The notes under the pieces: model-generated
The model's input: only the letters and a program-made list of their open reading frames with translations
The model's database searches: none
What the model was told of the DNA's origin: nothing
Position numbers and translations under genes: made by a program
In this document: positions 617 to 57,625 of the stretch, one piece after another
Layout of the letters: each line of letters begins with the position of its first letter
Numbering within the stretch: the first letter of the stretch is position 1
NCBI GenBank assembly: GCA_026002875.1
Contig: BPGE01000001.1
Location: forward strand, 744,001 to 808,000
Reading direction: 5' to 3'
DNA from: Bryobacteraceae bacterium
GTDB lineage: Bacteria; Acidobacteriota; Terriglobia; Bryobacterales; Bryobacteraceae
Length of the DNA: 64,000 nt

Positions 617-2393
617 CTGGCCGCCCCTGCAACTGCGGCCCCGCGGGACCACGCACGAGGAGTGGGCGGGTTATGCTCGCTCCGCAGCGCCTCAATGCAT
701 GATTGCCGCGAACTGCCGAAACTTCAGTGAGGACGGCATCCAGGCATCAGTCTGTGCTTATTCGGCATGAAAGGTGAAGCCGTCTCGGCTGGCGAACAAC
801 CCGGTGTCCCGGGGCGAGCAGGCAGCACGGGTCGAGGTCTCGGCTGTTTCCAAGGCCGAATGGCTACCAGCCGTTCACGCCACTGGATCGGGCTGGGCCG
901 GAAGGATCACAGTTCCGTCGGGACGCCCTTCCGAGACACGTCTGAGGCGGCGCAAGTTGGTGGCAATGTCGATGAAGATTTCAGCGGATTCGATTGACAC
1001 GCCCCCAAACCACAAAACAGCCCACACGACTGCCATCAGGATCAGCATCCCTTCCCAAATGCTGTCGAGTGAAACAGAAGAGATCAGGTTCAGGAAAGAT
1101 GTCTCCTTCTCTAGCTTCTTCATCTCGTTTCTCAGATCCATCAGCCGGCCTTCAGCCTCCGTTTTGGCCCTCTGCAGGACCTCGGGCCGGTTGGCAGCCG
1201 CGGCCTCGTCGATTTCCTGGTGCAGCGCTGCCCTCTGAAAGACGAGATCCAGGTGTTTGAAGACCTTTTCATCAAACTCCGACTCTGTAGGCGACTGCTG
1301 TAGGTAGCGTGAAACAGCATCCCTGATTCCATCGCGTCCCGCAGACGTCCTCAAACGCCCTCGGTTGGCCTCGAGAAACCTGTTGATGCTCGCGAAATGT
1401 CCGCCGAAGTCCTCCGCGGCCAACGCCGAAGCGGAACTGTCAATTCTCGCCGTCAGTTGAGAGATTTCGGAACGTTTCTGACGAAGCTCCTCCTCGAGGC
1501 GGCTCCGGCTTTTCAATTTGGTCTCCAGGTCTGCCAACTCGCGTTGGGCACGGGGCAAACTTTCCGACTTCAGGAAATTCAGCCGGATGGCGGCTTGCTC
1601 CCGGCTTGCCGCGACTTCTGGAGGAACGCTCTGGTCGAGGACCAGCATCAGTCCGAAGGCTCCAATCAGCGAGAGAGAAAGGAACAACACGCCAAGTTGG
1701 ATCCTGATCGCAGTTCTCAACAGAAATTGCGGGTCAGTCACCTTCAGACGAACACTTTGACCGCTTTCTGTGGACAGCCTGAAGACCGCATAGCGGATGT
1801 ACGCGAAAGGGGCAACAATGAAGTCCACAAGCGTCAGCCACAGACCCTTTAGAAGGGAGCCTGGTTGGCCCGCAGAGAAGAAGAAGAGAGAAAGCCCGCA
1901 AAACAGCAGGAAAAGGAGAAGGACGACATACACTCGGTCACCGCTCAAGAGACCGCTAAATAGGTTCATTGGGATACATTTCCTTTCCTTCCGGGGCGGT
2001 TTGTCCTTGCCCGGAAAACGTCTCACTATTCAATCGGCATTCGTGACTGTTTTGATTAGCGGGTCGCTGCAGCATGCCATCCGGCCGCAAACGACGGGCT
2101 GTAACCCAGTGATTATGCGCATGCTGAGTCGCGAAGCTGTGCCTTTCTCGGCGACCTGTCAGAGCTGTGTCCGACAGGGCTTCCGGCAAACCTCCGGCTC
2201 TGAGGCCATCAAGGCTGGATGACCCCGCTGTTTCCTGAAAGACTGAGTGCCGGAAAAAACGGGTGCAGACAGACAATTCAGAACAGGTGAGACTGCGAAG
2301 AGCGGCGCTTGCAGGCCGCATTGGCGGGAGGGTGGTCTTCCAGCTCACATCAGCCTCAATTCACGAGTTCGCCTACGGACACAAGCCGGGCTC
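610..2393. mobile_element. 1.8-kb insert bracketed by 180-bp direct repeats
   Basis: The DNA between the two perfect repeats is visibly less GC-rich than its surroundings: 32 of 60 bases are G or C in 1021-1080, against 43 of 60 in 2701-2760. It carries one credible gene, on the minus strand (875-1969). I see no integrase, transposase or terminal inverted repeat. The flanking copies are the 3' end of the host gene, so a circular molecule carrying that 3' end and integrating by single crossover would give this layout. A tandem duplication or an assembly join would also fit. Bases 617-874 and 1970-2393 hold no gene I can support. Confidence 0.6.
875..1969 (-). CDS. membrane protein with central coiled coil, unknown
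   Basis: About 364 residues. The start is the ATG of MNLFSGLLSGDR, preceded by AAGGAAAGG about 11 bases upstream; an in-frame upstream extension has no such site. Hydrophobic segments lie at about residues 12-32 (VYVVLLLFLLFCGLSLFFF), 40-60, 90-112 (IQLGVLFLSLSLIGAFGLML) and 305-325 (MLILMAVVWAVLWFGG). Between the third and fourth is a ~190-residue, charge-rich helical region with heptad-like spacing (ELADLETKLKSRSRLEEELRQKRSEISQL), so a long coiled coil is likely. I do not recognise the family. It is the only gene of the repeat-bracketed insert and its codon use is AT-richer than its neighbours, which suggests recent transfer. Confidence 0.75.
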   Translation of the reverse strand: MNLFSGLLSGDRVYVVLLLFLLFCGLSLFFFSAGQPGSLLKGLWLTLVDFIVAPFAYIRYAVFRLSTESGQSVRLKVTDPQFLLRTAIRIQLGVLFLSLSLIGAFGLMLVLDQSVPPEVAASREQAAIRLNFLKSESLPRAQRELADLETKLKSRSRLEEELRQKRSEISQLTARIDSSASALAAEDFGGHFASINRFLEANRGRLRTSAGRDGIRDAVSRYLQQSPTESEFDEKVFKHLDLVFQRAALHQEIDEAAAANRPEVLQRAKTEAEGRLMDLRNEMKKLEKETSFLNLISSVSLDSIWEGMLILMAVVWAVLWFGGVSIESAEIFIDIATNLRRLRRVSEGRPDGTVILPAQPDPVA

Positions 2394-2573
2394 GGTGCGG
2401 CTGATTCCGACGGGAAGCCAGCAGAAGCTGGTGTTCCGTTACTCCGACATCGCGGGCATCGAATTCAGCGGCCGCGACATGGCGGCGGGCAAGCGCTGGC
2501 AGGACTGGGTGCGGCGTTACGCGGAAAAGAAAGCAGCCGGCGAGAAGAACATCCAGCTCGAGCCGGAGCGGCT
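2394..2573 (+). repeat. 180-bp perfect direct repeat, copy 2
   Basis: This copy is identical to 430-609. It reads on to a stop at 2578-2580 (tail ERLD) but has no start of its own gene. An open frame from 2263 runs through it with an unrelated N-terminus and no ribosome site, so I treat it as the displaced 3' end of the gene at 239. Confidence 0.95.
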
Positions 2574-2580
2574 CGATTAG
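2394..2580 (+). pseudogene. orphan 3' half of the hpnH-coupled small gene
   Basis: The fragment encodes the last ~62 residues (VRLIPTGSQQKL to LEPERLD) without a start or the N-terminal half. It is probably the original chromosomal 3' end cut off by the insert at 610-2393. No synonymous change separates it from the intact copy, so the event is recent or the copies are kept identical by recombination. Confidence 0.7.
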
Positions 2581-2607
2581 CTTCCTGCGCCACCGGCTCG
2601 CCAGCGG

Positions 2608-4614
2608 TCAGCGCCCGGCGGGCGCGCTGATCAACGTCACAAAGCTCGTCGCGTCCAGTTGCAGCTCCGCCTTGCCTCGCTGAACGGGCACGCGCGCCAG
2701 CTCCTGCATCGACCGCGCCGCGTCGGTGACCCACGCGCGCAGCTCCGTGACGGTTTCAGGAAAACCCTCGATCACCGCCGCGCGCGCCGCGCCGCGGTTC
2801 ACCAGATGTACGGTAAATACGCCATTGGCGATGTCACCGAGTGCAGCGGCGGTGATCAGGGGGTGATCCGTTTCGACGGGCAGGTGAAACGAGCGGTGCG
2901 GCGTGGACGCAAGCTGTTTCAGGTTCCAGAAGCGCTGCGTCGGCCGCAGCGGGCCGTCGTCGCCGGCAATGCCGTTGCCCGCCAGCAGCGAATAGTCCGC
3001 CGTGAGCTGCCACTGAAGAATCGATGCCGGCTGCGCCACGGCCAGGATGCGGGTGTAGAGGTCGATCTCATACATGGCGAAGGACGGCTCGAGGAAAATC
3101 CGCGAGTAACGCCAGGCGGCCGCATCGGTGCTGCCTTCGCCGACCAGCAGCGGGACATTGAGACGGCGGGCGGCCGCAAGCCAGCGCTCGAGGTTCTGTT
3201 GCGTGCAGCCGCGCCAGGAGTGGAAGCTGACGGCTCTGGTGAAGCGGGCCGCCTCCGGATCGGCCAGTACGGGGTCGACGAAATCCACCGGGTCGGCGTC
3301 GGACGTGTCTCCGGCGAGAAGGCGAGTGGCCAGGCCGTGGCGGGCGAAATGCGGGCCGAGGGTGCGGATGAGCCGGGCGTGCTCGCGCGGGGTCTGGCGG
3401 ACATCGATGCCGAGGTCGGATTCATTGAAGGAAAACATGGCCGCCTCGACGCCATACTTTTCCTTCAAAAAGAGGAAATATCCTGTAATTGAGGCGGAAA
3501 TTCTCTCCATTTTCGCAGGGTTGAGCGGGTTCCCCCGCGGGCCGTCTTCATCGGGCGGGCGTTTGATTTCTCCGAGAACAGCCCAGGCGGGGGGAAACCA
3601 GGCGCTGACGATCACGGGCAGGCCCATGCGGTGGAGGCGCTGGGCCATCGCCATGGCGGTATGCACGCGCGGATGGAGCCTGCCTGCTCGCGCCTGCGCG
3701 AGCGGGTCGGCCGATTCGTCGGGATCCCAGAGGTTCCAGGGCATGTCGACGCGCGACCAGGCGAGGGGCAGGTTGGCGAGGTTGTAGTCGACAACGGCCG
3801 GATCGCGTTTTTCGTTCTGGATGCGGAAATTGCCGCCGAAGCCGTGCCACATCTGACCGGGGCGCGCGGGGTCGAAGCGCACGCGGACGGGCCTGAGGTC
3901 GGGCTCGCCGGAGGCGCGGATGCGGAAGCTGGCTCTGGCCGAAGAGCCGGAGACAGGGTTTGCCGGCATCAGGCGGAACAGCACCTGCGCATCGTAATTG
4001 CCATCCCTGCGGTCATCCCGGATGACAATTTCCGTCGGAGCGTCGGCCGTGATTTCGAGCGTGCGCGCGGGCGCCGCGATCCGCAGCCCGGAGGCGGTGG
4101 CGCGCAGGTATTCGTTGCGCTCTTCCGTCAACGGCTGGAGGGAGACTGCGGCCGGAGATCCGGAGGCGGGAGAAAGAAGTTCGGCCTTCGCGCGCGAAAA
4201 TTCCTCCGCCGGCAATTGGATGCAATAGAAAACGCCCTCGATGGACGCGTCGGAGGCGGCCTGGATCTGCACGTTGACCTGCGCCGTGTCCGGCGCGGGC
4301 GCCTCCACCGTCTGGTTTCCTGCAAAGCGCCACGAGACGCCTTCGCGGCGGAGGCGGCGGGGCGGGCGGAACTCGGACAGGCCGATTTCAACGGCGCCGC
4401 CGCGGCGGAGAAACGTCGTCTGCTGCCGCTCCTTTCCGGTGCGGCTCCAGAGGGTCCAGCCGGGCTCGACGACACAAAGGCCGGCATCGAAGGCGTGCAG
4501 GTGGCCGTTGATCCGGATCCCCTCGAGATTGCCCCAGCCCATCACCTCCGGCTGAGCGCAGGAAGGCACGGCGAAGGCGAAGAAGAAACCGGAAACGAGA
4601 AGCGCGCATCTCAT
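2608..4614 (-). CDS. secreted GH30-like (clan A) glycoside hydrolase
   Basis: About 668 residues. The ATG of MRCALLVSGFFFAFAVPSCAQ starts a clear Sec signal peptide and follows AAGGA; a further in-frame upstream ATG is less likely. The N-terminal ~260 residues are beta-rich and may bind carbohydrate. The catalytic barrel begins near WHGFGGNF, a hallmark of GH30 and related clan-A enzymes. The probable acid/base is E398 in FSFNESDLG and the nucleophile E493 in LVGEGS. A C-terminal beta domain follows (ITAAALGDIANGVFTVHLVNRG). Such enzymes cleave beta-linked glucans, xylans or glucosides outside the cytoplasm; the exact substrate cannot be read. A GH5 gene lies nearby. Confidence 0.8.
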   Translation of the reverse strand: MRCALLVSGFFFAFAVPSCAQPEVMGWGNLEGIRINGHLHAFDAGLCVVEPGWTLWSRTGKERQQTTFLRRGGAVEIGLSEFRPPRRLRREGVSWRFAGNQTVEAPAPDTAQVNVQIQAASDASIEGVFYCIQLPAEEFSRAKAELLSPASGSPAAVSLQPLTEERNEYLRATASGLRIAAPARTLEITADAPTEIVIRDDRRDGNYDAQVLFRLMPANPVSGSSARASFRIRASGEPDLRPVRVRFDPARPGQMWHGFGGNFRIQNEKRDPAVVDYNLANLPLAWSRVDMPWNLWDPDESADPLAQARAGRLHPRVHTAMAMAQRLHRMGLPVIVSAWFPPAWAVLGEIKRPPDEDGPRGNPLNPAKMERISASITGYFLFLKEKYGVEAAMFSFNESDLGIDVRQTPREHARLIRTLGPHFARHGLATRLLAGDTSDADPVDFVDPVLADPEAARFTRAVSFHSWRGCTQQNLERWLAAARRLNVPLLVGEGSTDAAAWRYSRIFLEPSFAMYEIDLYTRILAVAQPASILQWQLTADYSLLAGNGIAGDDGPLRPTQRFWNLKQLASTPHRSFHLPVETDHPLITAAALGDIANGVFTVHLVNRGAARAAVIEGFPETVTELRAWVTDAARSMQELARVPVQRGKAELQLDATSFVTLISAPAGR

Positions 4615-54781: not shown

Positions 54782-56218
<1,437 letters not shown>

Positions 56219-56282
56219 CGTCCGTCTGAGCGGTGCAGGAAGCGCGACCGGAGCGCGTTGCAGGCGCAGGTCAGAGCCGTGT

Positions 56283-56419
56283 CAGAGCCGCGAGTGGAGC
56301 GGTCCGAAGGACCGCGGGAACGAGCGGTCGAGGCGCGGCCGGCGCGGCGGTTCGACGTGCGGGGCACGGTTGGGACCGCTCACTCTCGGCGGCTGGCGCC
56401 GCCTTTGTTCGCGGCTCTG
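56283..56419 (+). repeat. 137-bp structured repeat R1
   Basis: Bounded by CAGAGCCGCGA (56283-56293) and its exact complement TCGCGGCTCTG (56409-56419). Inside are a hairpin GCGGTCC-GAA-GGACCGC (56299-56315), an arm GAGCGGTC/GACCGCTC (56322-56329 with 56374-56381) containing CGTGC-GGG-GCACG, and GGCGGC-TGGC-GCCGCC (56388-56403). The whole unit can fold as a branched cruciform. Confidence 0.9.
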
Positions 56420-56493
56420 AAGCCGACATTCGCCGCCTTCGTTCGCGGCTCTGAAGCCAGTGCACGAGTCTACGGGATGCGTCAGAGCCGTGT

Positions 56494-56630
56494 CAGAGCC
56501 GCGAGTGGAGCGGTCCGAAGGACCGCGGGAACGAGCGGTCGAGGCGCGACCGGCGCGGCGGTTCGACGTGCGGGGCACGGTTGGGACCGCTCACTCTCGG
56601 CGGCTGGCGCCGCCCTCGTTCGCGGCTCTG
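56494..56630 (+). repeat. 137-bp structured repeat R2
   Basis: Same length, ends and internal stems as R1, with few substitutions (e.g. GCGCGACCGG for GCGCGGCCGG). It is 74 bases after R1 and is joined to R3 by a 40-base linker that also occurs as the end of the R1-R2 spacer. Confidence 0.9.
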
Positions 56631-56670
56631 AAGCCAGTGCACGAGTCTACGGGACGCGTCAGAGCCGTGT

Positions 56671-56807
56671 CAGAGCCGCGAGTGGAGCGCGCCGCAGGCG
56701 CGCGGGAACGAGCGGTCGAGGCGCGGCCGGCGCGGCGGTTCGACGTGCGGGGCACGGTTGGGACCGCTCACTCTCGGCGGCTGGCGCCGCCTTCGTTCGC
56801 GGCACTG
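56671..56807 (+). repeat. 137-bp structured repeat R3, compensated hairpin
   Basis: Same unit, but the first hairpin reads GCGCGCC-GCA-GGCGCGC (56687-56703) instead of GCGGTCC-GAA-GGACCGC. Both arms changed so that pairing is kept. The right terminus has one mismatch (TCGCGGCACTG). Confidence 0.9.
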
Positions 56808-56883
56808 AAGCCGGTGTTCGCGGTCTTGAACGCGCTACGTTCGGGGCAACGACGCCTGCTGGTTTCGTTCCGCAGGACGATTC

Positions 56884-57378
56884 TCACCACTCTGGATCCA
56901 CGAACACCTCCATGGGCGTGCCCTGGCGGTCTGCGACATAGACGATGGCATCGTGGAAATCACGATCCTTCCACAGCCAGACAGTGCTGCCGTGCCGCGC
57001 CCATCGGCGGCTCCGCACGCATTCGCCGGGCAGCCGGGCCAGCCGGCGGCTCGCATAGGCTTTCAGCCCCCTCAGGATTTCCTCGGGCGGCGCTTCACCC
57101 TCCGCCACAACGTGGGCATGCGTCGGGCGAATATGCGCCGCCCAGATGCGCCAACCACGCCGCCGTGCGGCTTCCAGCACACCCTGGAGCACCGTCCGGC
57201 GCTGCTCTGGGCCAAGTTCGTAGACTGGTTCTTTCATAACGCGGCGCACGAACGCCAGCCGGCCAGGACTGGCGGGCGCATAGGGCGTTCCGAATATCCT
57301 GTGCTGTTTGTCCACCGAGCCGTCCGAATCGCCGTGTAGCCTGTGGCCGTAGCAGGTGAAGGTGATGAGATAGCGCAT
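56884..57378 (-). CDS. REP-associated tyrosine transposase (RAYT, Y1/HUH type)
   Basis: 164 residues. The start MRYLITFTCYGHRLHGDSDGSVD is the common RAYT/IS200-like N-terminus (ITFxxYGxxLHGDxxGSVD). The HUH pair is RPTHAHVV and the catalytic tyrosine is probably in LKAYASRRL, followed by WARHGSTVWLWKDRDFHDAIVYVADRQG. Such enzymes nick and join single-stranded DNA at REP palindromes and may spread them. Three 137-bp repeats lie on one side (56283-56807) and one on the other (57489-57625), as in REPtrons. The ribosome site is weak. Confidence 0.85.
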   Translation of the reverse strand: MRYLITFTCYGHRLHGDSDGSVDKQHRIFGTPYAPASPGRLAFVRRVMKEPVYELGPEQRRTVLQGVLEAARRRGWRIWAAHIRPTHAHVVAEGEAPPEEILRGLKAYASRRLARLPGECVRSRRWARHGSTVWLWKDRDFHDAIVYVADRQGTPMEVFVDPEW

Positions 57379-57488
57379 CCACTGCTGGAGTGCGCGTAGC
57401 CAAAGGAAATTCTCAGGAGAAACCCGTGGTGCCGGGTTCCCGGTGCCGCCAATCCATCGGCCACAGGCAATGGGTCAGAACGGCTTGT

Positions 57489-57625
57489 CAGAGCCGCGAG
57501 TGGAGCGGTCCGAAGGACCGCGGGAACGAGCGGTCGAGGCGCGACCGGCGCGGCGGTTCGACGTGCGGGGCACGGTTGGGACCGCTCACTCTCGGCGGCT
57601 GGCGCCGCCTTCGTTCGCGGCTCTG
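57489..57625 (+). repeat. 137-bp structured repeat R4
   Basis: Same length, ends and stems as R1 and R2 (hairpin GCGGTCC-GAA-GGACCGC), on the other side of the transposase. It is followed by AAGCCGACATTCGCCGCCT, the same 19 bases that follow R1. Confidence 0.9.

Follow-up and report, generated by a model that had tools for sequence, protein, structure and literature searches.

The window, meaning the whole stretch of DNA analyzed here, comprises 64,000 nucleotides (G000:C1:744001-808000) of a Bryobacteraceae genome of 4.86 Mb in one contig, hereafter G000. Next to argG it carries a RAYT gene and four repeat units, R1 to R4, arranged as follows:

54875-56218, plus strand: argG, argininosuccinate synthase, upstream neighbour of the repeat array
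56283-56419, plus strand: R1, probable REPIN; REP 56283-56329 (+), spacer 56330-56373, REP 56374-56419 (-)
56431-56462, plus strand: extra repeat-family fragment resembling the 3' end of a REP, just past R1
56494-56630, plus strand: R2, probable REPIN; REP 56494-56540 (+), REP 56585-56630 (-)
56671-56807, plus strand: R3, probable REPIN; REP 56671-56717 (+), REP 56762-56807 (-)
56884-57378, minus strand: RAYT, HUH/Y1 tyrosine transposase of 164 aa; HxH residues 87/89, Y147, Q152
57489-57625, plus strand: R4, probable REPIN on the 5' side of the RAYT gene; REP 57489-57535 (+), REP 57580-57625 (-)

The four units are exactly 137 bases long and all lie on the plus strand, three beyond the 3' end of the RAYT gene and one past its 5' end. 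R2, R3 and R4 are 95, 98 and 99% identical to R1 (E 6e-57 to 8e-64). A preliminary description of this DNA had reported four 137-base copies on both sides of an HUH/Y1 transposase, and the positions, identities, protein motifs and a fold match confirm this. The 11-base inverted ends it gave to every unit (CAGAGCCGCGA/TCGCGGCTCTG) match perfectly in R1, R2 and R4; in R3, with GGCACTG at the 3' end, one base fails to match. The nested stems exceed chance, with RNA folding z-scores of -4.9, -3.7, -2.7 and -4.4 for R1 to R4 (the fold of R3 was matched by 2 of 200 shuffles) and a DNA folding z-score of -4.6 for the whole of R1. R2 and R3 are tandem copies with a period of 177 bp, and the four copies are therefore not four independent insertions. 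An array at 3490009 of the same genome holds three identical copies with a period of 136 bp, and tandem duplication is thus seen at both places.

The transposase and its class

The window RAYT contains the motifs THAH and YVADRQ. H87, H89, Y147 and Q152 are invariant across four aligned sequences, i.e., the window RAYT and homologues from an acidobacterial MAG, a planctomycete MAG and Minicystis rosea. An AlphaFold2 model made from these four sequences had a mean pLDDT of 76.5 and a pTM of 0.74. The top Foldseek match of the model was ISDra2 TnpA (2xm3; E 5.5e-4, TM 0.48), and E. coli TnpA-REP with its REP hairpin (4er8) was found at E 1.1e-3 and TM 0.48; of these two, only 2xm3 passes the threshold of 0.001. 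All structures at ranks 1 to 29 are titled transposases, further ISDra2, IS200 and IS608 structures included. The modelled fold is thus probably that of a Y1 HUH transposase, a likeness shared with the IS200/IS605 elements ISDra2 and IS608. At the sequence level, the protein had no Pfam match at E 1e-3 and no match in a PDB sequence search up to E 1, and the NCBIfam RAYT model NF047646 scored 20.1 bits against a cut-off of 80. Among named records, a Candidatus Sulfopaludibacter MAG (Acidobacteriota, Bryobacterales) gives the best match, at 45% identity.

Placed by its motifs, the transposase fits class 3 of the TnpA-Y1 superfamily. It has the Y----Q motif and the W[TA] motif in the form WA (RRWARHGST), and it resembles class 3 as outlined in passages of PMC6006769 also in its similar length, its acidobacterial relatives, the presence of several repeats beside the gene, and a repeat foot, CAGA, that fits CnGA. 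It differs from the class-3 consensus given there in its HxH motif, which is THAH and not NHVH. The motif varies at other loci as well, with THVH at L010 and L085, DHIH at L111, RHVH at L112 and NHVH at L113. A class-2 RAYT with GTAG-type REPs was considered and rejected: none of 62 REP halves has GT[AG]G at columns 1-4, and NF047646 is the class-2 (REP_Tyr_transpos) profile whose score stayed under its cut-off.

According to the same passages, class-3 genes are flanked by atypical secondary structures with the foot CnGA, which were found by hand, and class-3 RAYTs are possible intermediates between IS and REPtrons; Solibacter usitatus is credited with about 600 CnGA-footed repeats and three class-3 genes (PMC6006769). 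The window REPs depart from these published repeats in having an extra apical hairpin and in forming inverted doublets, partly in tandem. Neither REPIN doublets nor apical-hairpin REPs were found described for class 3 in the literature searched, which included main-text passages of PMC6006769.

Structure of the repeat unit

Each unit is built of two REPs of about 46 nt, inverted around a 44-nt spacer. From its 5' foot CAGA the REP continues into a stem (GCCGC/GCGGT), an internal loop (GA/GA) and two inner pairs, and it is capped by an apical hairpin, which is absent from the 26-nt class-3 REPs of other genera. The foot is CAGA in seven of the eight window REPs and CAGT in the 3' REP of R3, whose 5' REP carries a compensatory hairpin change (GCGCGCC/GGCGCGC). 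Most REPs of G000 have CAGA, and the foot in G004, another genome of the genus, is mostly CNGT, with a T at the fourth base where the foot in the passages of PMC6006769 is CnGA.

All six units examined show the 3' half, once reverse-complemented, aligning to the 5' half (z 3.0 to 5.6). In two of them the highest-scoring of 1000 shuffles nevertheless lay above the real alignment, at 19.5 vs 15.5 in R1 and 14.0 vs 12.5 in the unit at L087. Additionally, the covariance model described below matches both strands within one unit, and a plain MAFFT alignment places both halves in one REP family (62 of the 86 halves given; 51 columns). As the 3' half in reverse complement aligns to the 5' half, the unit corresponds to a REPIN, defined in a section of PMC3116915 as two inverted REPs separated by a spacer, or to what a part of PMC3733652 calls an HH dimer. 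We thus consider it highly probable that the 137-mers are REPINs of class-3 type beside a class-3 RAYT, i.e., inverted REPs with their feet outward and a spacer between. The preliminary view that the unit greatly exceeds REP hairpins and BIME pairs in length and complexity is not supported, as each 137-mer is itself an inverted REP pair.

The units resemble the REPINs of Pseudomonas fluorescens SBW25, as portrayed in sections of PMC3116915, in having two inverted REPs, a variable spacer, compensatory changes, an extragenic location and a RAYT in the genome. Unlike those, the window REPs are about 46 nt long with an internal loop and an apical hairpin, have the foot CNGA/CNGT and accompany a class-3-like RAYT. 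GTAG HH dimers/BIMEs, in the portion of PMC3733652 concerned, are likewise inverted pairs, mostly 20-100 bp apart with their tails outward; the window unit is longer and has another tetranucleotide. With IS200/IS605 elements the REPs share a hairpin with a short guide sequence (passages of PMC6006769). In contrast to those elements, there are many inverted copies of one REP here, and the gene has one close copy in the genome.

Predicted energies show how the halves and the whole unit may fold. With RNA energies, the single-REP hairpin comes out best in R1, R3 and T1, for either half, as well as in the 5' halves of U1 and the unit at L069. The 3' half of the L069 unit is without the two inner pairs, and the 3' half of U1 and both halves of the L087 unit fold otherwise. 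With DNA energies, the single-REP hairpin was best in all three window halves tested, with four and not five pairs in the outer stem. Its z-scores are modest at -2.4, -2.8 and -1.4 for three window REPs, and two 26-mers gave -1.4 and one REP of a second type, described below, -0.6. The whole 137-mer as DNA in isolation, however, is predicted to form a cloverleaf of -49.2 kcal/mol, compared to -11.6 and -12.2 kcal/mol for the single hairpins. A GTGG just before the hairpin in the 5' halves of R1 to R4 had suggested that the inner hairpin alone is a class-2 REP; this reading was ruled out, as other halves carry GTGA, GCGA, AACG and other bases there.

The very stable fold of the whole unit, both as RNA and as DNA, favours an alternative in which the 137 bases function as a whole: a cloverleaf cruciform or structured RNA with four stems, which the RAYT would spread as a single domain. 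The two structures can be compared by covariation. Covariance model A2 was built from seven units and searched in five genomes of the genus, and alignment A3 was made from 67 matches at E <=0.001 in 45 sources, obtained by a second search in stretches fetched from these genomes. With one strand per place and identical copies dropped, 43 distinct units were kept (8 from G000, 21 from G004 and 14 from G003), the weakest units of G003 (e.g., L094, L097 and L099) being doubtful. A3 was fitted to the cloverleaf structure and then used to test pairing within halves against pairing between halves; the shuffle statistics leave the relatedness among units in place.

The two inner pairs within halves are Watson-Crick in 75.8% of 161 cells; the shuffles gave 51.1%, none of 2000 reaching the observed share. 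Thirty-three cells are two-sided, compared to 11.5 in shuffles. The cloverleaf pairs between halves, which use the same columns, are Watson-Crick in 31.7% of cells, compared to 30.9% in shuffles (844/2000). Since many cells of P1 12-13 are G-U (44.6%), the test was run again with G-U accepted as a pair and with shuffles confined to one genome at a time. The pairs within halves again exceeded the shuffles (83.2% vs 68.1%; 0/2000) and those between halves did not (55.9% vs 56.1%; 1172/2000), although P1 12-13 is 74.7% paired when G-U is counted. The covarying structure is therefore the single-REP hairpin, and pairs that only the cloverleaf would form do not exceed chance. P2 and P4 also covary (91.0% and 92.2%, compared to 68.6% and 67.3% in shuffles), but they belong to either fold.

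Some long-range pairing exceeds the shuffles, namely P1 1-4 (74.9% vs 60.1%) and P3 42-46 (87.4% vs 82.2%); P1 5-9 does not (394/2000). This signal can be explained by the foot, which differs by genome, with both REPs of a genome changing together. The outer GCCGC/GCGGT stem shows no covariation, its Watson-Crick shares of 77.7% and 72.9% being equal to those of shuffles, as its sequence hardly varies. Because the cloverleaf DNA fold is stable and the P1 ends and P3 42-46 lie above shuffles, the long REPIN hairpin may matter too.

In the plain alignment of the 62 halves, the single-REP structure has 119 cells with two-sided changes; shuffles gave 54.2 (0/500), and sliding the structure never gave more than 37. 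Two of five measures were not above shuffles in this alignment (two-sided-change pairs, 261/500; further pair types, 91/500), and its covariation comes partly from the 5' and 3' halves as two groups (GT/AC and AC/GT). The tests on the 43 units are cleaner, as the halves are treated apart there.

For the whole-unit alternative, the position of the units mostly between genes, often convergent ones, means that a transcript could include them. Against it, partnerless REPs occur and the window has no Rfam match. Together with the chance-level cloverleaf pairs, this leaves the alternative very improbable in our judgement. The multi-arm fold of the preliminary description thus stands as a stable prediction and not as the structure that covaries, and its proposal of a structured RNA gene family finds no support.

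Copies within the genus

DNA similarity to the unit was found in 3 of 41 genomes (G000 included), all of the same genus, and the units are dispersed in these three. G000 gave 26 DNA matches in one search and 29 in another, window copies included. Twenty of the 29 cover the 3' REP only, one of them being half of a doublet, and clear full doublets are few. This differs from published REP classes, 17 of 20 of which have a singlet-to-doublet ratio under two according to a section of PMC3116915; a low ratio is a typical and not a defining trait of REPINs. Further copies in the genome and covariation are both seen, the two findings whose absence the preliminary description had held to speak against its reading. 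In a genome-wide covariance-model search of the kind it had proposed, at E <=0.1 and with both strands counted, there were at least 28 matches in G000, 1 in G001, 22 in G003 and 33 in G004, and none in G002 among the 150 candidates scored; the counts are lower bounds, as 150 candidates were scored per genome. A 16-mer pattern allowing one mismatch was uninformative across the five genomes, with 51, 61, 29, 56 and 80 hits, forward and reverse added up, in G000 to G004 compared to 48, 53, 56, 46 and 53 for the reversed-pattern control.

The units lie mostly between genes. Thirty-eight of 45 overlap ORFs called by a home-made caller by less than 20%, compared to 14% of random windows. Convergent gene pairs flank 21 of 43 units and divergent pairs 4, compared to 35 and 31 of 146 gaps. 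The unit at G000:1284838-1284949 (L021 1839-1950) sits at the 3' end of an ORF, read by eye as nucleoside-hydrolase-like, with a TGA in the REP as its stop codon.

Downstream of argG the genomes of the genus can be compared directly, as the ArgG protein is 94-98% identical in all four other genomes (argG loci L115-L118). REPs follow the 3' end of argG in G000, G004 and G001, where the contig ends inside the REP, and the first bases downstream in G002 and G003 are without a REP. G002 and G003 share a gene beyond argG (89% identity, deaminase-like by eye), and unrelated genes lie beyond the REPs in two of the three genomes with REPs. REP presence at argG coincides with a synteny break (window 56218-56283). 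As the genes downstream differ, rearrangement could also account for REPs being there in some genomes and missing in others. A clean empty site was found neither here nor at the unit 1284838-1284949, where neither G004 nor G002 conserves the sequence past the gene, and no instance of transposition was seen.

G003 (one contig, 4.4 Mb, 100% completeness) contains at least 14 places with diverged REPIN-like units at a genome E <=0.01. No RAYT was detected there by the profile at 1e-15 or by the window protein at 1e-20, nor was there a PF01797 match at 1e-3, a Pfam model that also misses the window RAYT. These diverged units without a detectable RAYT show that the association of RAYT and REPIN is not obligatory, and they are possibly an orphan population. 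A genus with and without detectable transposase offers a chance to ask whether REPINs decay after RAYT loss.

Two further arrays in G000 each contain a single class-3 REP. The array at 4666831-4668001 has a spacing of about 270-290 bp and includes other palindromic modules, which were seen for this array only; that at 3334794-3335124 has a spacing of about 145 bp.

Class-3 repeats at other RAYT genes

Class-3-like RAYTs were found in 34 of 121 genomes of the family (G000 included) with a three-sequence profile at E 1e-15. A descriptor of the REP plan gave 47 matches in 35 sources, with 5.2 expected. With the window, L010 and L085, the loci of the genus itself, left out, 28 matches remained in 32 sources, compared to about 4.6 in Markov controls. 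At least one match was present at 15 of the 29 family loci L122-L150; the other 14 had none, and neither did L111-L113. The descriptor was written after inspection of L111, L112, L128, L130, L132 and L136, and these loci are thus not independent. Its matches include a few spurious ones, inside the L010 gene, at L126 518-547, as 32-nt matches in the window, and as 42- and 72-nt matches at L130 and L132.

The commonest form is 26 nt long and reads CNGA-GCCGC-GA-CC, a 4-nt loop and GG-GA-GCGGT; at L125 and in one REP of L128 it reads CNGA-GCCGC-GC-GC, a 4-nt loop and GC-AA-GCGGT. At L126, L127, L129 and L131 the gene lies between two inverted REPs with their feet outward; the distance to the gene is 9-18 nt at L126 and L129, the two loci for which gene ends were read. 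The two REPs flanking the RAYT are direct and not inverted at L122, L125 and L134. Inverted doublets occur at L130, L132, L112 and L111, one in L112 being partly masked. L150 carries CCGAGCCGCGAGTGTGAACGAGCGGT, the core of the window REP minus its hairpin. Judged from these sequences, the window REP would have arisen from the 26-nt type by gain of an apical-loop hairpin of some 20 nt; that the change ran this way is our reading.

G000 itself has a RAYT paralogue at 2182133 with 51% identity to that of the window, flanked on both sides by direct copies of the form CNGA-GCCGC-GC-GG-hairpin-CC-AA-GCGGT, the second-type REP. Its relative in G004, where the contig starts just before the gene, has four such REPs downstream. 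Same-plan REPs thus stand beside class-3-like RAYTs of other genera and beside the paralogue. This argues against the units being ordinary, non-mobile repeats multiplied by recombination and slippage, with the RAYT a coincidental neighbour, as do their dispersal in three genomes and the REPs that follow argG in three genomes of the genus and were not seen in two. The tandem copies of R2/R3 (177 bp) and at 3490009 (136 bp) and the lack of a clean empty site would agree with such an origin, to which we nevertheless give hardly any credence.

The preferred reading, a REPIN system beside its RAYT, agrees with the preliminary description of a REPtron-like locus, the units being the probable substrate of the RAYT; further copies, covariation and same-plan REPs at other class-3 genes were all found. 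The proposed mechanism draws on E. coli TnpA-REP, which processes single-stranded REP and needs the REP structure, according to a part of PMC8266576. When the region is single-stranded, during lagging-strand replication or transcription, each REP would fold into its own hairpin. The RAYT would recognize foot and hairpin, cleave through Tyr147 and join the unit elsewhere, with survival mostly between genes, and local copy number could then rise by tandem duplication. By this analogy we infer mobilization as single-stranded DNA, and cleavage, strand transfer and the action of this RAYT on this REP are likewise proposed.

The locus is a class-3 REPIN-RAYT system with enlarged REPs, of specialist interest and not a new kind of element. 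The class-3 repeat gains a definition supported by covariation, i.e., a foot, a five-pair stem, a 2x2 internal loop, two inner pairs and an apical loop or hairpin, which makes the class-3 substrate testable in vitro and findable by computer. A wider and rather doubtful speculation is that class-3 REPs grow by hairpin insertion into a permissive apical loop, while the part read by the RAYT stays fixed (CNGA foot, GCCGC/GCGGT, GA/GA or GC/AA, and two inner pairs), and that units persist without a detectable RAYT. Of the two folds, the single-REP form might then serve DNA transposition and the long-REPIN form the structure of RNA 3' ends where genes converge.

The distinct REP types of the RAYTs in G000 fit a rule stated in a passage of PMC6006769, by which every RAYT is paired with a REP family of its own. 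A further PF01797 match, at 3427295, lies in a locus where no 12-mer occurs three times. A third Y1 gene (G000:2167796-2168152; L119 3297-3653), 28% identical to the window RAYT, sits among copies of another palindrome containing CGCTTGCGCGAGGGCTGCATCCC. This palindrome is also found in mixed repeat arrays (L015, L018, L020 and L023 among others). At L119, about 1326-3045, an IS with a transposase-like gene was seen by eye inside a copy of the palindrome (CGCTTG before it and CGCTTGCGCGAG after it), which fits the targeting of REPs by some IS elements reported in a part of PMC1525189.
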